Below, piece by piece: positions 4,310 to 17,837 of a stretch of DNA of 34,990 nucleotides (positions are counted from its first letter, which is position 1; each line of letters begins with the position of its first letter). This DNA is from Candidatus Roizmanbacteria bacterium RIFCSPLOWO2_01_FULL_40_13. Lineage in GTDB: Bacteria; Patescibacteriota; Microgenomatia; UBA1406; GWC2-37-13. Under the pieces are notes generated by a model, which ran no database searches, was not told where the DNA came from, and saw only the letters and a list, made by a program, of their open reading frames with translations. Made by a program: the position numbers and the translations under genes. Location: NCBI GenBank assembly GCA_001789745.1, contig MGAN01000018.1:1-34990 (forward strand). The letters run 5' to 3'.

Positions 4310-7003
4310 TTAATATTTACTTAAGAAATTTTTAATTTTCTCTTTGACATATTTGATTCTTTGAATATCTATTTCTGGAAACACTCCCAACCAAAATGCA
4401 TCATTCATCACTCTATCGGCGTTTTGTAGAGAAGCATCGCTATGCGTCTCTACAGTTTTATATTTTATATTTTTATAAGCGGGATGCCTCAACAGGTTAC
4501 CGGAAAAAATATTGCGGGTTCCGATTTTCTGCTTTTCCAGATATTCGGTTAGTTCGTTGCGGGTAAAAGGAGCATCAGATCGTACAACAACCGGAAAACC
4601 GAACCAGCAGGGATCTTCATATTTACCCGTTTTCATCAGAATAAAAAACTTCTGATATTTTTGGAAAAACTCAAAATATTTTTTGAAGTTACTTTTACGT
4701 TTTTTAATAAAATTCGGGAGCTTCTTAAGCTGGGCAACACCTATCGCTGCCTGAAAGTCTGTTAACTTCAGATTGTAGCCTATTTGGGAATAAATGTATT
4801 TGTGATCATAACCGTGAGGAAGTGCTCCCAATTTCCAACCGAAACGGCGGCGGCAAGTATCATCACGGCCCGTATCACACCAGCAATCCCTCCCCCAATC
4901 GCGAAATTGCCGAATCGCCATGTGAATTAAAGGGTTATTGGTAATTACCGCTCCTCCTTCTCCCATGGTATTGTGCAAAAACGTTCCTAAAAAACCACCA
5001 TAAAAATTTTCTTTTCCCGGTACTGAAAAATCATATACATATTGATCTTTATCATAGTCTATCTTTTCAATTTTTCTCACCTTAAAGAAAGTTAAATTAT
5101 TGTTAACTAAAGAATATAGCTGAGAATTAGATTTAAGGTATTTAAGCAATCTTTTTTTAGAAATAATTTCTTGTTTTTTACTAACACTTATATATCTTCT
5201 AAATATCGGTAGAAGAGGAATTTGATCGGCAAGATTATTTCTTTCTTTTAAATTCTGCTTTTTTATGGTCTTATTACTATAATTATATCCGCTAAAACAT
5301 AGAGAATAATTTTCACTACTGGAAGTTTTTACTTGTTTAATTAATTTATCTTTGTTAGATTTGTTTCTTCTATAGAATGAAGCGCTAATTCCTATTCTTG
5401 ATAAAAGGTATTGAAAATCATTTAATAATTCTTTAGAAACACTAGTAACATCAATTCTATATGTATTATTTTTTAGTTTTTTAATCGAACCGTCTCCTTT
5501 TGTATAAGCATATATAAATGATTTAATACATTTTTCATCTGTATGATACAAAAACCAAGGAATTCTTTTATTTTTGGCACCTTTTTTAATTTTAAGAATA
5601 TCTTTAAAAACTATTTCTATGTTTTTTGATTCAATTTCAACGTTTGAAATATTATGGTAAGTTTTTGATACTCTTGCTTTAAGGTTAAATTTATTTTTAG
5701 CTATCATAATAACATCTTCAATTAAATCTAATTCTGCTTTATTAAATGAAAAAATTAATCCATTTTGATATGATCCTTCAGCAAGAAAGTATCCGATTAA
5801 TCTACATAATTCTTCATTAACTAAAATTGTTGCAGGGATTTTATTTGATTGCGAGATACCTAGAATAATTTTTTCTTTATTTAAATCATATGAAGTAAAA
5901 TATTTTATCGGCAAAGTATTTCTCGATTTGAACTGCCATCGGTAATCCCAGTTTTTTACATTCTTTAAATTCTCATGAGAGAAATTTGAAACATAAGTAT
6001 TTAAATTTTTAAAATAATCTAGTGTATTTAAATGAGTAACTGGTTGTGGAGTGGGAATAAAATTGGCTGAAACAATAAAGTCATCTAAAGTAAGTTCATT
6101 GACTTTTTTTGCTTCAATTTCTGCCGTTTCTTTATTTATAACAAAAATACTATGGTCTTGTGTTACGTCTACAAATCTACCATGTTGAGTTGTGACTCTG
6201 TACATTTTTTTCACAGATCCTAATTTATATCTTAAAATTGAGGATGGAGTAGTCCAGTTAACCTTACTATTTTTATCAAATGACAACACTTTTATTTTTT
6301 TAGGATTATTTACATATTGAAAATAGAGTTTTTCAATTGTATCGAGATTCCAAATTCCTTTCTCGTCTAAATAGGGAACAGGAGTATCAAAAGAACAACT
6401 CATCTGATGGGCCGGGTAAAAACTGAAAGTGGCGACATGCCCGAATGTTCCGACCAATTGACCGCCGTACTTTGATCCTAGTGCGTCACAACAATCCTCA
6501 ATTAACCAAAGACCATGCTTTTTAACCAGCCTCATCACCGCATCCAGATTATATGGTTTTCCCAAAGTATGCGCCATCATGATCAGGCGCGTTTTTTTTG
6601 TAATTGCTTTTTCCAGCTGATCAATATTGGCATTCAGCGTATCAAGTTCGGAGTCGATAAAAACGGGTTTAAGACCGTAGAGTAGAGCGGGATTGACAGT
6701 AGTCGGGAAAGCGACTGCAGTTGTGATAAACTCGTCTCCGGCTTTTAGTCTTTTTTCACCGAATTTCTCGGAAGTCAGAGCCGCCAACGCGCTTAGATTG
6801 GCGGAGGATCCGGAATTAACCAAAGATACATAACGCACTCCCATGAATTTTTTAAAATCGTTTTCAAAACGTTTGCCGAATTCTCCCTCTGTCCACCAGC
6901 CGTCGCGCGCAACTTTTATGGCATTGTTAATTTCCTCTTGGTCAAAGACTTTCCCGGAAACTCTGACGTAAGTCGTACCGGGAATAAATTTTGAATTTTT
7001 CAT
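4310..7003 (-). CDS. rfbH: RfbH-like CDP-4-keto-6-deoxyglucose 3-dehydrase (E1) precursor with in-frame intein
   Basis: The precursor has 897 residues, and removing a 477-residue intein leaves a 420-residue host protein, close to the E1/RfbH length. E1 is a PMP-dependent [2Fe-2S] enzyme that removes the C3 hydroxyl of CDP-4-keto-6-deoxyglucose. Its hallmark is His in place of the usual DegT-family lysine, seen here as SFYPAH with H199. The iron-sulfur cysteines match the published C-X57-C-X1-C-X7-C pattern after splicing: C172 in EDCCDALGS, then C707, C709 and C717 in RDCWCDTGRDDTC (precursor numbering). RfbF- and RfbG-like genes in the window support the role. No E3 reductase (rfbI/ascD) is in the window. 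No Shine-Dalgarno sequence is seen before the ATG. Confidence 0.9.
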   Translation of the reverse strand: MKNSKFIPGTTYVRVSGKVFDQEEINNAIKVARDGWWTEGEFGKRFENDFKKFMGVRYVSLVNSGSSANLSALAALTSEKFGEKRLKAGDEFITTAVAFPTTVNPALLYGLKPVFIDSELDTLNANIDQLEKAITKKTRLIMMAHTLGKPYNLDAVMRLVKKHGLWLIEDCCDALGSKYGGQLVGTFGHVATFSFYPAHQMSCSFDTPVPYLDEKGIWNLDTIEKLYFQYVNNPKKIKVLSFDKNSKVNWTTPSSILRYKLGSVKKMYRVTTQHGRFVDVTQDHSIFVINKETAEIEAKKVNELTLDDFIVSANFIPTPQPVTHLNTLDYFKNLNTYVSNFSHENLKNVKNWDYRWQFKSRNTLPIKYFTSYDLNKEKIILGISQSNKIPATILVNEELCRLIGYFLAEGSYQNGLIFSFNKAELDLIEDVIMIAKNKFNLKARVSKTYHNISNVEIESKNIEIVFKDILKIKKGAKNKRIPWFLYHTDEKCIKSFIYAYTKGDGSIKKLKNNTYRIDVTSVSKELLNDFQYLLSRIGISASFYRRNKSNKDKLIKQVKTSSSENYSLCFSGYNYSNKTIKKQNLKERNNLADQIPLLPIFRRYISVSKKQEIISKKRLLKYLKSNSQLYSLVNNNLTFFKVRKIEKIDYDKDQYVYDFSVPGKENFYGGFLGTFLHNTMGEGGAVITNNPLIHMAIRQFRDWGRDCWCDTGRDDTCRRRFGWKLGALPHGYDHKYIYSQIGYNLKLTDFQAAIGVAQLKKLPNFIKKRKSNFKKYFEFFQKYQKFFILMKTGKYEDPCWFGFPVVVRSDAPFTRNELTEYLEKQKIGTRNIFSGNLLRHPAYKNIKYKTVETHSDASLQNADRVMNDAFWLGVFPEIDIQRIKYVKEKIKNFLSKY
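4970..6400 (-). mobile_element. intein with LAGLIDADG (DOD) homing endonuclease, inserted in RfbH
   Basis: This is an in-frame insertion of 477 residues (precursor S202-N678) three residues after the active-site H199. Splicing motifs: block A SCSFDTPVP, block B FVDVTQDHSIFV, block F QYVYDFSVPGKENFYGG and block G GTFLHN followed by Thr+1. Endonuclease motifs: LCRLIGYFLAEGSY (block C) and FIYAYTKGDGSI (block E), both with their acidic residue, so the endonuclease looks intact. The DNA is visibly more AT-rich and A/T-homopolymer-rich than the flanking host coding sequence, which suggests separate origin. A start at C203 (476 residues) is the alternative. Ser1 fits block A spacing (D5, T6, V8), the family alignment AHQM-TMGEGG, and the Fe-S cysteine spacing better. 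Confidence 0.9.
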
Positions 7004-10653: not shown

Positions 10654-11763
10654 TTAAAGCGACAGGGCTGCTTTAAGATTGTCTTCACCGATAAATGGGG
10701 CCAGGTCTTCATAAGGACTATTTATGAATCCTCCTGCTTTTCTGACCGAAGTAATTCGCGGTTCTAATTTTTCCCAATAGGGAGTTTTAATTTCACAAAG
10801 CACGGCTCCTTTCATTTTTAACGAATCAGCGATGTTGTTTGAATAAGAAATGCCATAAGCTTCGGCCACTTTTTTAAAATTTGGGAAACCTAACCCGCTT
10901 CCGGCTCCTTCTCCAACCAACCTGTTCCCGCAGTGCGTTTTTTGCGTATTCCTGATGAGAAGATAACCGCTGTTATTCAGGAGAAAAATTTTGATATCCA
11001 ATTTATGCTTTACGACTGTCGCCAGTTCCTGTATGTTCATCTGAAAACACCCGTCTCCCGTAATGCAGATTACCCTTCTCTCGCTGGCCAGACTGGCTCC
11101 GATTGCCGCCGGCCAGTATCCCATGGTGGATATTCCACCGGTGGTGATATATATTTGACCTTTTTTAATCTGCCAGACCTGCGCCACTACATGAAAAGAT
11201 GACGAAGTATCTACTACGATTACATCTTCTTTTTCTGCCAGATCTGATATTTTTTTAATTTGTCCGTAAGAACCGGTCTGTTGCAAGGGATACTTTTTCT
11301 TCCAGCGCGCAATAAGCGAAAGCCAGTCTTTATAGTCTTTGTTGTGTTCATATTTTTTTAATTTGTCGATAAACATTTTCGCGTCCATTCTTACTTTCAA
11401 ATCTATATTTATTCCCGGTTTATTCAACTCCTCTTTATCAATATCGACTACTATTTTCTTGGCTTTTCTTCCCCAATCTGAAAATGTATAACCGACCATT
11501 CCTGTATCAAGTCTGGCGCCGACCGTTAAGATTAAATCAGCTGTTTGAACCGCAAAATGGGATATTCGATCGGACACCAGGCCGGGCCTGCCGATAAAAT
11601 AAGGATTGTCGGACTCGATCAGATCAATTCCCAGTCTGGTTGTGATCGTGGGAAGCTTTAAACTCTTGAAATCACTTCCCCTTGCGCCGTTGCCGACGAT
11701 TAAGATCGGCCGGTTGCTTTTTTTAATTAAGTCTGCTGTACGTCTAACGGGATCTCGAGCCAT
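10654..11763 (-). CDS. ThDP-dependent enzyme, central and PP domains (acetolactate synthase/YerE-like, C-terminal part)
   Basis: The product has 369 residues. Residues of about 10-135 form the central TH3 domain (ADLIKKSNRPILIVGNGARG, then ADLILTVGARLDTGMVG). Residues of about 165-330 form the ThDP-binding PP domain with GDG at 236-238 and NN at 263-264. The PYR domain with the catalytic Glu is in the upstream gene, in another frame, overlapping by 37 bp. Together they make up one acetolactate-synthase-like enzyme that lacks most of the usual linker between the PYR and TH3 domains. AAAAGGA lies 5 bases before the ATG, so independent translation is possible. By context it may transfer an acyl group to a CDP-keto-sugar, as YerE does; this is not proven. 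Confidence 0.8.
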   Translation of the reverse strand: MARDPVRRTADLIKKSNRPILIVGNGARGSDFKSLKLPTITTRLGIDLIESDNPYFIGRPGLVSDRISHFAVQTADLILTVGARLDTGMVGYTFSDWGRKAKKIVVDIDKEELNKPGINIDLKVRMDAKMFIDKLKKYEHNKDYKDWLSLIARWKKKYPLQQTGSYGQIKKISDLAEKEDVIVVDTSSSFHVVAQVWQIKKGQIYITTGGISTMGYWPAAIGASLASERRVICITGDGCFQMNIQELATVVKHKLDIKIFLLNNSGYLLIRNTQKTHCGNRLVGEGAGSGLGFPNFKKVAEAYGISYSNNIADSLKMKGAVLCEIKTPYWEKLEPRITSVRKAGGFINSPYEDLAPFIGEDNLKAALSL

Positions 11764-12242
11764 ACCGGTCCTTTTCTGCCAGTTGTCGCTAACTTATAAC
11801 TTTTTTCCATAAGTGCTTCTATGTTTGTTCTTCTGGTAACGGTTTTAAAATACTTGACGATTGATTTGGCTAAAGGCTCTATGTAAATTCCCTGAAGTCC
11901 GTACTGTCTGATTTTCGTCTTTGCCATCTGGATCACGTTAAATTCTGAAGAAGCACCCGATAAAATTAACAGCGGGGACGAATCTACGTAGGCTCCAACA
12001 ACTCCATTGATAACATTGACGCCGCCGGGACCCGCCGTAACCAAGACAACCCCCAATCCCGAAATTCTACCGTATGCCTCAGCCGCCATTCCCGCAGCTT
12101 GTTCATGATGGCAGGGAACATATTTTATTCTGCTCTTATAAATAGCATCCGTAAGAAACATAATTTGACCTCCGGCAACCAAAAAAATGTGTCTGACGCC
12201 CTTATTCTCTAAAAACTTAATTATCTTTTCGGCTTTATTCAT
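11727..12242 (-). CDS. ThDP-dependent enzyme, PYR domain (N-terminal part of the split acetolactate synthase-like enzyme)
   Basis: The product has 171 residues and covers only the pyrimidine-binding domain: FLVAGGQIMFLTDAI, then CHHEQAAGMAAEAYGR with the ThDP-activating Glu at E47, TAGPGGVNVINGVVGAY, and KGPVWLEIPLDVQ at the end. In full-length family members about 20-30 linker residues follow before the central domain; here TAA comes two codons after the last conserved residue. The rest of the enzyme is in the -1 frame downstream. The gene may be split by a deletion with frameshift, or be a true two-subunit enzyme. It overlaps the aldolase gene by 8 bp, so the operon is translationally coupled. 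Confidence 0.8.
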   Translation of the reverse strand: MNKAEKIIKFLENKGVRHIFLVAGGQIMFLTDAIYKSRIKYVPCHHEQAAGMAAEAYGRISGLGVVLVTAGPGGVNVINGVVGAYVDSSPLLILSGASSEFNVIQMAKTKIRQYGLQGIYIEPLAKSIVKYFKTVTRRTNIEALMEKSYKLATTGRKGPVWLEIPLDVQQT

Positions 12243-13218
12243 GCTTTAAGAATTTGGCAACTTCTATAATCTGATCCTCTTGGCCCGCCACAACTTTCCT
12301 TTTTCCCAACTCTCGGAAAATGTCACTGGCCTCTACCTTATATTTGTGCGCGGCTTTGATAACCAGCGGCGCAAAACCGGAAAATACTCCGTTAAGACCG
12401 GACATTATCGATAAGGGTGAAATGAGCTGCGGTTCTTTTAACTTGGCAATAACTTCGCTTCCCTTAAAAAGGGAATATAAATCCACTTCCGTATCATACC
12501 CTAATTTTTCTAAAACCGCCAGTACAACTTCCAGTTGGGCGTTGCCGGCTCCGGCGCCGAATCCGCGCGTGGTTGCATCGATCAGGGTTGCTCCGTTTTT
12601 AACTGCAACAACGCTGTTTATTACTGCCATGCCTAAATTATTATGAGCGTGAAAACCAACCGGGATAGTCAGGTTATTTGCCAAAAAGTTTATCTTGGAC
12701 TCAACTTCTTCCGGCAAATATGCTCCGGCAGAGTCCATGAGCAGAACTCCGGCGGCCCCGTAATTCTCCATCAGTTTTGCCTGCTCAAGCAATTTTAATT
12801 TGTCAGCCATATGGCTCATCATCAATACGCCGTAGGTGAGGACTTTTGAATGTTTGATATATCTTTTGGTCACGTTAGCTTCTGTGCAATGCGACGCAAC
12901 AAATAATACCTCAACCCCTTCGGATACTGCCAGGTCAATATCTCTTAAGGTAGCAAAACCCGGTATGGCAAACGCCGCAAGCTTAGTCCTTTTTAGTTCT
13001 TTTTTGGCTGTCGAAAGCATCTCTTGATCTGAAACTGCTGATTGGCCAAGATGAATTGATGAGGCGCTAAGACCGTTTCCATGCCCGACTACCAATATCT
13101 CGACACCCGCCGACTCTGCGGATTTGGCATAATCTTCGATTGCATTTTTGGGAATTTGGTGTCTTATAGCGTGACTTCCATCTCTTAAAGTAGAGTCAAT
13201 GATTGTTATTTTTTGCAT
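12235..13218 (-). CDS. mhpE: 4-hydroxy-2-oxovalerate aldolase (DmpG/MhpE family)
   Basis: The protein has 327 residues from the ATG at 13218; an upstream in-frame TTG is less likely. The family splits 4-hydroxy-2-oxovalerate into pyruvate and acetaldehyde, or runs the reverse condensation. Motifs: DSTLRDGSHAIRHQ with metal and catalytic residues R12, D13 and H16, and GFHAHNNLGMAV with metal-binding H190 and H192. ATTRGFGAGAGNAQLE is also family-typical. It forms a complex with acetaldehyde dehydrogenase in other bacteria, and that gene lies directly upstream, overlapping by 23 bp. Downstream it overlaps the ThDP PYR gene by 8 bp. A catabolic role is unlikely here, because the operon otherwise makes nucleotide sugars. 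Confidence 0.92.
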   Translation of the reverse strand: MQKITIIDSTLRDGSHAIRHQIPKNAIEDYAKSAESAGVEILVVGHGNGLSASSIHLGQSAVSDQEMLSTAKKELKRTKLAAFAIPGFATLRDIDLAVSEGVEVLFVASHCTEANVTKRYIKHSKVLTYGVLMMSHMADKLKLLEQAKLMENYGAAGVLLMDSAGAYLPEEVESKINFLANNLTIPVGFHAHNNLGMAVINSVVAVKNGATLIDATTRGFGAGAGNAQLEVVLAVLEKLGYDTEVDLYSLFKGSEVIAKLKEPQLISPLSIMSGLNGVFSGFAPLVIKAAHKYKVEASDIFRELGKRKVVAGQEDQIIEVAKFLKHE

Positions 13219-13948
13219 AGGCTTCAGCCACTTCAACTGCAGTTTTATTTATAATGTCAAGATTTCCTTCCCATTCTTTAAGATAATCTCCGTTTCCCTT
13301 GATTTCAAATTGTATAACCTCGGGTTGATTTTTATTTTTGAACTTTATATAGATGGTATTAAACATGTCAATCGGTGGTTCAGCCGGATTAATTATAAAG
13401 ATGCTTTTTGCCGGAATTCCAAAAAATTTGCCGATTGACATGGCGGTGGTTTCCAAATATTCGGACATATTATCCCTAGTCCCGATACCTGCCGAGACTG
13501 AAGAAATTGTCGTCACCACTTCTATATATTCGGCATTCTTTAGATTTTTAACTCCGGCGATTTTAGGGAGCATTACTTGAGCGCCGCACGAGATGAGAGA
13601 AACTTCGCTGGATTTTAATGCTTCATCGAGGTTAAGGCTCGGCACACACATTAAGCCCATTTTTGCAGGTGTTAAATCGATGACAAATCTGTTCTTTATT
13701 GGAAAATATTTCTTGTGGATTTCTGCCGAAGTAGCATCAAAAATTATTTCGGCATCGCTTTTTAATATTGCTTTTATGCTCTCTGTTGAGGTGTTTACTT
13801 TTAAGCTTTTGGCGAAGGCGATCCCCGGCGATTCTTTGCGGATTCCGGAAAATATGACACATTCCAAGAGCTCGGATTTTAGGATTTTAATTAAAAGATC
13901 CGTACCTACTTTACCCGTACCGATAATTCCGACTTTAGTTTTTTTCAT
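13196..13948 (-). CDS. mhpF: acetaldehyde dehydrogenase (acylating), DmpF/MhpF family
   Basis: The protein has 250 residues, shorter than the usual 300 or so, but both ends are family-like. The NAD-binding loop GIIGTGKVGTDLL is at 8-20, the catalytic cysteine C121 is in SLISCGAQVMLPKIAGV, and the SISSVSAGIGTRDN-like and INPAEPPIDMFNTIY segments are typical. The end, EWEGNLDIINKTAVEVAEAY, matches the normal C-terminus. It interconverts acetaldehyde and acetyl-CoA and normally channels acetaldehyde to or from the aldolase encoded next to it. The start codon lies 4 bp from repeat copy B, so its leader or promoter is probably the repeat itself. Confidence 0.88.
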   Translation of the reverse strand: MKKTKVGIIGTGKVGTDLLIKILKSELLECVIFSGIRKESPGIAFAKSLKVNTSTESIKAILKSDAEIIFDATSAEIHKKYFPIKNRFVIDLTPAKMGLMCVPSLNLDEALKSSEVSLISCGAQVMLPKIAGVKNLKNAEYIEVVTTISSVSAGIGTRDNMSEYLETTAMSIGKFFGIPAKSIFIINPAEPPIDMFNTIYIKFKNKNQPEVIQFEIKGNGDYLKEWEGNLDIINKTAVEVAEAYAKNNNH

Positions 13949-15201: not shown

Positions 15202-16026
15202 TTACAAATTTGCTTGAAAATCTTTTAATAATTTTTCCTTCGTCTGCTCGTCTATCGACTGATAATGGCTGTCAAATCTGCCTTCAAAAAAGGGGATGCC
15301 TTTTCCCTTAACAGTCTTTGCCAGAATCATCTTCGGCTTATTCTCATTACCGGTTTTTAAAGCCAAAAAAGCATTTTCCAGACTGCCAAAATCATGTCCG
15401 TCCGCTTCAACCACATTCCAGCCAAAAGTTGTCATCTTTTGGACCAGCGGAGAAAGGTCAATGACTTTTTTGGTTTCGGCATAACCTTGAAAGCCATTGA
15501 CGTCGACTACTGCTGTGAGATTTTTTAATTTATGATGCGCGGCATACATGATCGCCTCCCAATTCGATCCTTCATTCAACTCGCCGTCTGACATGAGTAC
15601 TACAATTTTATTATTTTTCCCGTCGTTTAAAAAAGATGTGGCAATGCCGACTCCCACGGGCAGACCGTGACCCAAGGAACCGGTTGACACCTCAACGCCC
15701 GCAACCTGATGGTGAATATGCTCCGGCAAATGCCCGCCGTCTTGATCGTAGGAAAAATAAACTTCTTTTGGAAAAAATCCTTTTTGATAAAGCACTGTGT
15801 ATACGGCTAAAGCCGCATGGCCTTTGCTCAAAATAAAAATATCCCTATTTTCTTTTTTTGGATTTTTTGGGTCAATATGAAGTACTCTGTAATACAGATA
15901 AGTTAATATATCGACAATCGAGAAAGAACATCCTATATGATGGGTTTCTTTGGCGCGAACCGCCTGAAGTATCAGATATCTACTTTCCCTGGCTATTTTT
16001 TTTAATTCCCGAAAATTATTTTTCAC
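15202..16026 (-). CDS. transketolase, N-terminal subunit (ThDP-binding PP domain)
   Basis: The protein has 274 residues. ThDP-binding features are STGSLGHGLPVGVGIA, then MSDGELNEGSNWEAIMYAAHHKLKNLTAVVDVNG, which stands for the GDG...N motif with the first Gly replaced by Ser. The early segment AVRAKETHHIGCSFSIVDIL is typical of transketolase N-terminal subunits. It starts with GTG, overlaps the rfbG-like gene by 11 bp and is followed after 21 bp by the C-terminal subunit gene. It carries the cofactor pyrophosphate and Mg site; activity needs the partner. Confidence 0.92.
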   Translation of the reverse strand: MKNNFRELKKIARESRYLILQAVRAKETHHIGCSFSIVDILTYLYYRVLHIDPKNPKKENRDIFILSKGHAALAVYTVLYQKGFFPKEVYFSYDQDGGHLPEHIHHQVAGVEVSTGSLGHGLPVGVGIATSFLNDGKNNKIVVLMSDGELNEGSNWEAIMYAAHHKLKNLTAVVDVNGFQGYAETKKVIDLSPLVQKMTTFGWNVVEADGHDFGSLENAFLALKTGNENKPKMILAKTVKGKGIPFFEGRFDSHYQSIDEQTKEKLLKDFQANL

Positions 16027-17032
16027 TGCTGATTTGGGATTTAATTATCTTTTTATACCAAAAATATATGTTTTTACCAACCGTCATCAAGTTAAACTTC
16101 GGTTTCCAACCTAGAACTTTTTTTATTTTGGAGTAATCCAGAGATTGATAGGGTATTTCGTTTTTTGCACTGTTTAGAATCTTAAAGTCGATTTTTTTAT
16201 GCAAAATTTTTTCAAACCGGTTAATGACCTCGATCACCGATAAACTTTCTTCCGAGCCAAAATTAAATGCTTCACCCTGCGCTTTATCGATATTATCTGC
16301 CAATAACAAATAACCACTCACCACATCTTTTACGTAAAGATAGTCTCGGACATAACTTCCGTTGCTTCTTACTTCTAACTTCTTGCTTTGTACTACTGAT
16401 TCAATTATTCCCGGAACTATTCTTGAGAAATTCAGATCGCCTTCGCCATAGATATTGCCGAATCGGGTGATGACTACAGGTAAATTATAAGTCCTGTAAT
16501 ATGCGGTACTGATTAAATCCGCAGCTGACTTTGACACTTCGTAAGGATGATCTCCCCGCAAAGGATCAGACTCTTGATATCTTAATTTTGACTTTTGACT
16601 TTTGACTTTTGACTTTATTTTGCCGTACGCCTTATCCGATGAAGCCACAATCACTCCTGTAACCTTAGGATATAATCGTGCGGCCTCCAATATATTTATC
16701 GTTCCCGTAATATTTGATTCCAAAGTCTTTCGGGGATTGTAATAAGCTGTCTCAACCAGAGCTTGAGCCGCCAGATGAAAAATAAAATCTGTTTCAAATT
16801 TTGTAACAATATCCGTCATGCTTTCAAAATCCGCCACATCCGCGTGCACCATCTTGACTTTTTTATTTAATCCCTGGCTAAAAAAGTAGGATAGGGGAGA
16901 GGTGGATATAAAAGTAGTCACCACATTAGCCTCTAACCTGACCAATTCCTCGACCAAGTGAGAACCTACAAATCCTGTCCCACCGGTAACTAAAATGTTT
17001 TTACTTTTTAAATTTGTACTGTAACTTTTCAC
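16016..17032 (-). CDS. rfbG: NAD-dependent sugar epimerase/dehydratase, probable CDP-glucose 4,6-dehydratase
   Basis: The protein has 338 residues and is an extended short-chain dehydrogenase: GGTGFVGSHL (about 17-26), HLAAQALVETAYYNP, ASSDKAYG with the S/D/K active-site triad region, YEVSK with the Tyr-Lys pair, and FGNIYGEGDLNFSRIVP. These fit RfbG, and the gene follows the cytidylyltransferase, so CDP-glucose to CDP-4-keto-6-deoxyglucose is the likely reaction. An unusual K/S-rich loop (KIKSKVKSQKSKL) between SSDKAYG and the YQESDPLRGDHPYE segment is encoded by four perfect 7-bp repeats. The GTG start lies inside another 7-bp repeat tract. The substrate assignment rests partly on context. 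Confidence 0.85.
   Translation of the reverse strand: MKSYSTNLKSKNILVTGGTGFVGSHLVEELVRLEANVVTTFISTSPLSYFFSQGLNKKVKMVHADVADFESMTDIVTKFETDFIFHLAAQALVETAYYNPRKTLESNITGTINILEAARLYPKVTGVIVASSDKAYGKIKSKVKSQKSKLRYQESDPLRGDHPYEVSKSAADLISTAYYRTYNLPVVITRFGNIYGEGDLNFSRIVPGIIESVVQSKKLEVRSNGSYVRDYLYVKDVVSGYLLLADNIDKAQGEAFNFGSEESLSVIEVINRFEKILHKKIDFKILNSAKNEIPYQSLDYSKIKKVLGWKPKFNLMTVGKNIYFWYKKIIKSQISSEK
16586..16613. repeat. 4 x 7-bp perfect tandem repeat (TTTTGAC) inside rfbG
   Basis: Four exact copies of TTTTGAC, read as GTCAAAA on the coding strand. Because 7 is not a multiple of 3, gain or loss of one copy would shift the reading frame. Confidence 0.95.
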
Positions 17033-17057: not shown

Positions 17058-17837
17058 TTATTTCCACACCTTCCACGCCGCCTTACCGGTAGCCCAGATT
17101 TTGTTTAACTCCTCAAACTCGCGATAGGTATCGATCGCATACCAAAATCCGTTATTCTTAAAAACTGCCAGTTGCTTAGCTCTTGCCAGTCTTTCTAAGG
17201 CCGGATGTTCTGTTTCACCGGGCCTCAAGTAATTGAAAAACCTCTTGTCAAAAACCATAAAACCTCCGTTTACCCAGTTGTCCAAAATCGGCTTTTCTTT
17301 AAATGATTCAACCATTCCGTTTCTTCCGATCATCACCAATCCATACCTGCTTCTGGGATGGACAGCGGTAATGGTTCCTATGGTTTTTTTGCTTTTATGA
17401 AATTTTACTAGTGCGGCCAAATCAAGATTCGTCACGCCATCCCCATATGTAACCATAAAATATTTGTCACGCTCGGGAATATAATCTCTGCATTTTAAGA
17501 TTCGCTCACCGGGCATCGTCTCGAGTCCCGTATCGACAAAAGTAATTCTAAAATCGTCAATCTCGGATCTGTTTTCCAGAAAGAATTTGGTATGGTGATT
17601 TCTGGTATTTAAGGTGAAATCCGAAGTGAAAGCTTTTTGATTGAGGAAAAAATCTTTGATATAGTCGCCTTTATATCCGAGCGCCAGAATAAATTCGTTA
17701 AACCCGTAGGAGGCATAGATTTTCATAATATGCCAAAGGACGGGTTTGTTGCCGATCATCACCATCGGTTTGGGTTTGAATTCGGTTTCCTCCTTCATTC
17801 TGGTGCCGCGTCCGCCGCAGAGTATGATAGCCTTCAT
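17058..17837 (-). CDS. rfbF: glucose-1-phosphate cytidylyltransferase
   Basis: The protein has 259 residues, like RfbF/AscA enzymes. It makes CDP-glucose from CTP and glucose 1-phosphate, the first step to 3,6-dideoxy and branched CDP-sugars. Motifs: ILCGGRGTRMKEETEFKPKPM (about 5-25, nucleotide binding), GNKPVLWHIMKIYA, YGDGVTNLDL (metal/nucleotide Asp) and NGGFMVF. It is the first gene of the minus-strand operon that continues with rfbG and the transketolase pair. Its start lies 24 bp from the divergent EamA gene, so both promoters share this short spacer. Confidence 0.95.
   Translation of the reverse strand: MKAIILCGGRGTRMKEETEFKPKPMVMIGNKPVLWHIMKIYASYGFNEFILALGYKGDYIKDFFLNQKAFTSDFTLNTRNHHTKFFLENRSEIDDFRITFVDTGLETMPGERILKCRDYIPERDKYFMVTYGDGVTNLDLAALVKFHKSKKTIGTITAVHPRSRYGLVMIGRNGMVESFKEKPILDNWVNGGFMVFDKRFFNYLRPGETEHPALERLARAKQLAVFKNNGFWYAIDTYREFEELNKIWATGKAAWKVWK

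Follow-up and report, generated by a model that had tools for sequence, protein, structure and literature searches.

The window (the whole stretch of DNA analysed, 34,990 nucleotides) contains on its minus strand an uninterrupted frame of 897 codons without a stop (4310–7003), which encodes the sugar-nucleotide enzyme RfbH with a long internal insert. The first-pass annotation had placed an intein within an RfbH-type dehydrase at 4970–6400, and these coordinates proved exact, precursor residues 202–678 corresponding to window positions 6400–4970. The features of the gene, and two further genes that bear on its function, are as follows.

4310..7003, minus strand: RfbH precursor gene (host protein plus intein, 897 aa); open frame, 596.8 bits with NF011936
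6401..7003, minus strand: N-extein, RfbH residues 1–201, ending ...FYPAHQM; aligned to Protein Data Bank (PDB) entry 3bcx up to its residue 222
6407..6409, minus strand: codon of His199, the cofactor-site His replacing the PLP lysine; aligned with residue 220 of 3bcx (Lys in 3bb8)
4970..6400, minus strand: intein, 477 aa, Ser1 to Asn477 (precursor residues 202–678), from profiles, motifs, and fold model
6362..6400, minus strand: block A, SCSFDTPVPYLDE, with the Ser1 nucleophile, Thr6, and Val8; kept in five complete copies
6140..6181, minus strand: block B, GRFVDVTQDHSIFV, with T80 and H83; T80, D82, and H83 invariant in six copies
5771..5800, minus strand: LAGLIDADG motif 1, LIGYFLAEGS, acidic residue E208; A207, E208, and G209 invariant
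5558..5581, minus strand: block D, GAKNKRIP; K276 invariant
5486..5518, minus strand: LAGLIDADG motif 2, FIYAYTKGDGS, acidic residue D303; G302, D303, and G304 invariant
4994..5044, minus strand: block F, QYVYDFSVPGKENFYGG; D457, N465, and F466 invariant, with an intein_Cterm match
4970..4981, minus strand: block G, FLHN, penultimate His and terminal Asn; H476 and N477 invariant
4310..4969, minus strand: C-extein, RfbH residues 679–897 plus stop, beginning with Thr+1 (TMGEGGA); aligned to 3bcx from its residue 223
16016..17032, minus strand: CDP-glucose 4,6-dehydratase-like gene (RfbG type); TIGR02622 211 bits, below the cut-off of 278
17058..17837, minus strand: glucose-1-phosphate cytidylyltransferase-like gene (RfbF type); TIGR02623 272 bits, below the cut-off of 300

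The identity of the host protein, as proposed in the first-pass annotation, was borne out by the NCBIfam RfbH equivalog profile NF011936, which scores well over its cut-off of 423 bits and matches the frame on both sides of the insert. The N- and C-terminal parts of the protein align end to end with PDB entry 3bcx: H199, Q200, and M201 correspond to residues 220, 221, and 222 of that structure, and the C-terminal part resumes at T223. H199 is the cofactor-site His that replaces the PLP lysine, as described from the sequence; 3bb8 has Lys at this position. The host is thus the same protein as RfbH/E1, CDP-6-deoxy-L-threo-D-glycero-4-hexulose-3-dehydrase (3bcx, 3bb8), although the solved enzyme lacks an insert. 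The C-extein also contains a Cys-rich stretch, CWCDTGRDDTC, of interest with regard to the [2Fe-2S] cluster cysteines of this enzyme type.

Profile searches, proposed with the original intein call as a check for a Hint domain, identified both Hint and LAGLIDADG domains within the frame. Among Pfam profiles, Intein_splicing (PF14890) reaches 67.6 bits against a cut-off of 35.8, and LAGLIDADG_3 (PF14528) reaches 62.9 bits (cut-off 22.5) in two stretches; the NCBIfam profiles intein_Nterm (TIGR01445) and intein_Cterm (TIGR01443) score 31.0 and 21.5 bits, with cut-offs of 24.5 and 15.6, respectively. Blocks A, B, F, and G and the two endonuclease motifs (FLAEG and TKGDG) lie in frame, as first described. 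In an AlphaFold2 model of the insert, the best structural match is 2cw7 (E 1.3e-20), followed by the TliVMA and PhoVMA inteins (7qss, 7qst); confidence in this model is moderate (mean pLDDT 68.5), being low at residues 384–436 and at the C terminus. The catalytic set comprises Ser1, T80/H83, H476, N477, and Thr+1. Normal intein nucleophiles are Cys or Ser at position 1 and Cys, Ser, or Thr at position +1 (2020 review, PMC7765530), and hence the residues at position 1, in block B (T..H), at the penultimate His, at the terminal Asn, and at +1 are all of the permitted kinds for a class 1 intein. By profile and by fold, the Hint splicing domain carries blocks A, B, F, and G, and the acidic residues of the two LAGLIDADG motifs, E208 and D303, are invariant in the six copies found. 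We are therefore highly confident that rfbH is interrupted, between its Met201 and Thr679 codons, by a class 1 intein that is complete and carries a LAGLIDADG homing endonuclease with two motifs. Self-splicing and DNA cutting are the predicted activities of this insert.

The exact insertion point was deduced from RfbH homologues with empty sites (65 rows, one gene having been entered twice, which leaves 64 distinct proteins). All 64 lack the insert and have, without gaps, the spacing that the window protein acquires upon excision (PAHxx|TMGEGG), reading H-x-[I/M/L]-TMGEGG, in which TMGEGG is always separated from the His by exactly two residues. Once residues 202–678 are removed, PAHQM is thus followed directly by TMGEGG, in line with the continuous numbering of 3bcx (220–222, then T223). 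The insertion is thus precise, with intein-free host genes in relatives. The junction lies two residues past H199 (H199-Q200-M201|S202), and the original wording, which put the intein three residues after the His, is correct when taken to mean intein residue 1.

Because of the spacing in the 64 empty homologues, residue 1 is assigned to the Ser and not to the Cys that follows it. A start at Cys203, with Ser202 remaining in the host, could be considered since most inteins begin with Cys and since each of the five copies covering the intein start has kept the Ser-Cys pair. Such a start would, however, leave one surplus residue in the cofactor loop of the spliced product, and Thr and Val/Ile would no longer fall at positions 6 and 8, as they do when Ser is residue 1. 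In the intein_Nterm match, profile position 14 falls on residue 215, which likewise sets position 1 at residue 202 and agrees with a block A that has Thr at 6 and Val at 8. In CPR bacteria, FtsH inteins open with Ser in a like context, SVTGDTPV as compared with SCSFDTPV here. We regard the later start as very improbable.

The empty sites also bear on whether the insert could be a structural part of RfbH in this lineage, as might be suggested by its identical length of 477 aa in three Roizmanbacteria. The closest relatives, which belong to the same genus and are 85 to 86% identical, lack it, and by profile and fold the insert is a Hint–LAGLIDADG protein. This reading, for which absence of the insert from homologues had been proposed as a check, is refuted by the empty sites, and we give it next to no credence.

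A scan of RfbH homologues for insertions at the same site, also suggested in the first-pass annotation, revealed five carriers besides the window. Within the order searched, the intein occurs in G005, which belongs to the genus of the window genome, and in G063, from its family; both copies have 477 aa and an identical codon boundary. A genome scan yielded three more, in two Saganbacteria (60% identity) and in one Elusimicrobia genome (55%). In total, there are six carrier genomes in three lineages (three Roizmanbacteria, two Saganbacteria, and one Elusimicrobia), and the relatives at this site are 55 to 71% identical to the window intein. All carriers share the junctions ...H[QH]M|S-C...HN|TMGEGG. 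The rfbH gene of G005 spans two contigs, which were joined through a 14-base overlap, and the copy in G063 ends 28 residues into the C-extein. G063 additionally encodes a divergent RfbH with an empty site (L019, G063:C46), which has an end branch of 1.78 in the tree described later.

These copies also inform on the state of the element. If the intein had decayed, with motifs left but splicing or endonuclease function lost, RfbH would be dead or the element fixed. Both acidic endonuclease residues are kept in all six copies, however, and the nucleophiles and helper residues of splicing are kept wherever a copy covers them; none of the copies contains a stop. The pN/pS of the intein is 0.23 to 0.31, so the intein protein is under constraint. 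Decay is accordingly quite improbable.

The insert occupies the identical spot in three distant lineages and is missing from close relatives, which marks it as a mobile element. How it reached its present distribution was analyzed with a tree of 49 RfbH proteins from which inteins had been removed. On this tree, the six carriers require six changes, a number not below that obtained with shuffled labels (mean 5.8), and by identity the proteins closest to that of the window are empty-site ones from its own genus. A single clade for all six carriers was rejected (p-AU 1.7e-5), whereas one for the same-genus carriers, the window genome (G000) and G005, was not (p 0.53), so a single gain within the genus is possible. 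The ratio of intein to extein Kimura distances is 1.52 within lineages (95% 1.27–1.84) and 0.74 between them (0.61–0.90), the groups being Roizmanbacteria on the one hand and Saganbacteria plus Elusimicrobia on the other; the two ratios overlapped in none of 1000 resamples, in a test that presumes a like relation of intein and extein rates across all lineages. Since inteins thus evolve faster than their hosts within lineages, yet are more alike than their hosts between lineages, the intein would have moved between rfbH genes after these had split. Vertical inheritance of an old intein followed by many losses would fit the parsimony count, which does not distinguish gain from loss, and also the Met at position −1 that carriers share with each other and with some empty relatives. 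That inteins are less diverged than exteins between lineages, despite their faster change within them, speaks against it, and we consider this history unlikely. Judged from these sequence comparisons, the sporadic distribution over six genomes clearly points to lateral spread between lineages, probably by homing. The intein DNA is AT-rich, with a G+C content of 25% as opposed to 39 to 45% in its exteins. No relative was found among the viral contigs and annotated phages searched, and hence no vector was identified there; in the plasmids searched, a haloarchaeal helicase and a hypothetical protein gave the only two matches, both of them distant (23–26% identity).

Met precedes the junction in 6/6 carriers and in 22/64 empty sites (Fisher p about 0.003, with one duplicate row included), but the difference is not significant in a kinship-aware pair test, which had too few pairs (median p 0.5). 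This is a hint that Met at −1 may be required for homing or splicing or may result from co-conversion. Empty RfbH copies in the window's genus have Ile at this position.

A different insert occurs in RfbH of G1034, a genome from the phylum set of the Elusimicrobia carrier (L142:2179-3525, G1034:C41). This 449-aa insert, LIEDN|C...HN|CDAFG, adjoins another cofactor motif. It has canonical Cys1, His-Asn, and Cys+1 residues and LAGLIDADG-like stretches (YCAEGS and INGDG), and its match to Pfam Intein_splicing is weak, reaching 22.1 bits where the cut-off is 35.8. Like the window intein, it lies in RfbH beside a cofactor-binding motif (LIEDN|CDA), but with its Cys1/Cys+1 chemistry, its different length, and only ~25% identity over 136 residues it represents a separate lineage. 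Intein insertion sites tend to be near active sites (mean distance 8.3 Å; PMC3359363), a tendency that RfbH fits, with unrelated inteins at two of its cofactor motifs. The second insert suggests that RfbH is a recurrent intein target.

Among characterized inteins, PI-PkoII (2cw7), TliVMA, and PhoVMA share a Hint fold into which a two-motif endonuclease is inserted, but reside in other hosts (DNA polymerase and V-ATPase) and are only 15 to 18% identical to the window intein. The CPR FtsH inteins (L039, L040, L041, and L074) are among its closest non-RfbH relatives in the phylum, at about 65 to 82 bits against the RfbH intein model; they have the same Ser1/Thr+1 combination and LAGLIDADG motifs but differ in host and site. 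Outside RfbH, the highest-scoring match in the class (89.5 bits) is an intein in a UDP-glucose dehydrogenase-type protein of G698 (L071), also a sugar-nucleotide enzyme and from the same class as the window genome, although of another host family and with a Cys+1 junction instead of Thr+1. Of the 374 genomes in the class, 67 had intein-like matches to the RfbH intein model; the host proteins include FtsH, UDP-glucose dehydrogenase, and DnaG-like, VirB4-like, and NifU-like proteins, and inteins look common in this class. Separately, an NAD-dependent sugar-nucleotide epimerase/dehydratase of Cyanobacteria bacterium QS_4_48_99 (L066:3408-6734) apparently contains two inteins, the second of which matches Pfam Intein_splicing (78.4 bits) and LAGLIDADG_3.

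We propose that, after translation, the Hint domain would shift the N-extein onto Ser1, from which it would be passed to Thr+1; cyclization of Asn477 would then join ...PAHQM to TMGEGG..., yielding normal RfbH. In a cell that receives an empty rfbH, the endonuclease would cut close to the junction, ATG|AC, and the intein would be copied in during repair. Before splicing the cofactor-site loop is broken, and the precursor should therefore be inactive, which would tie survival of the intein to efficient splicing. The RfbG- and RfbF-type genes, together with transketolase halves and acetolactate synthase-like and aldolase genes in the window, are consistent with a CDP-3,6-dideoxysugar pathway, perhaps a branched one. 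No second RfbH over the NF011936 cut-off was found in the 89%-complete assembly of the window genome, so the enzyme would need splicing, and dependence of sugar synthesis on this step is plausible. Two other genes of the window show irregularities: an acetolactate synthase-like gene (10654–12242, minus strand) is frameshifted near 11730–11760, which could be an assembly error or decay, its homologues in L033, L034, and L037 being intact, and an acetaldehyde dehydrogenase-like frame (13196–13948, minus strand) matches only the first 215 to 221 of 285 to 303 profile positions and overlaps the next gene, being truncated or frameshifted.

Ser-Cys opens the intein in every copy that covers the start, and one could imagine that the intein is kept as a switch, the Cys after Ser1 making splicing at the cofactor loop responsive to redox state or metals. 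We think this improbable; if true, it would mean that synthesis of a 3,6-dideoxysugar coat is gated post-translationally in these small-genome bacteria.

Most described inteins reside in proteins of DNA and nucleotide metabolism, and inteins in other sugar-nucleotide enzymes are known from UDP-glucose dehydrogenase and from GFAT of Methanocaldococcus. The literature searched, which was partial and included few subscription papers, yielded no report of an intein in RfbH or DegT-family enzymes, nor any on inteins in CPR protein genes of this kind or in Saganbacteria, and nothing in it contradicted the first-pass statement that none had been described in the CDP-sugar 3-dehydrase family. Within that literature, both the host gene, rfbH, and the site of insertion are new for what is otherwise a well-known type of element. 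The RfbH inteins, with Ser1 and Thr+1 and with empty sites to match, form a set usable for tests of splicing and homing; the same residue combination also occurs in the FtsH inteins of the phylum. Surface-sugar genes are often transferred between bacteria, and such frequent transfer would supply a homing element with many empty targets. The presence of a single intein allele in a surface-sugar enzyme across Roizmanbacteria, Saganbacteria, and Elusimicrobia points to DNA exchange, which would have taken place between tiny uncultured bacteria and unrelated lineages.
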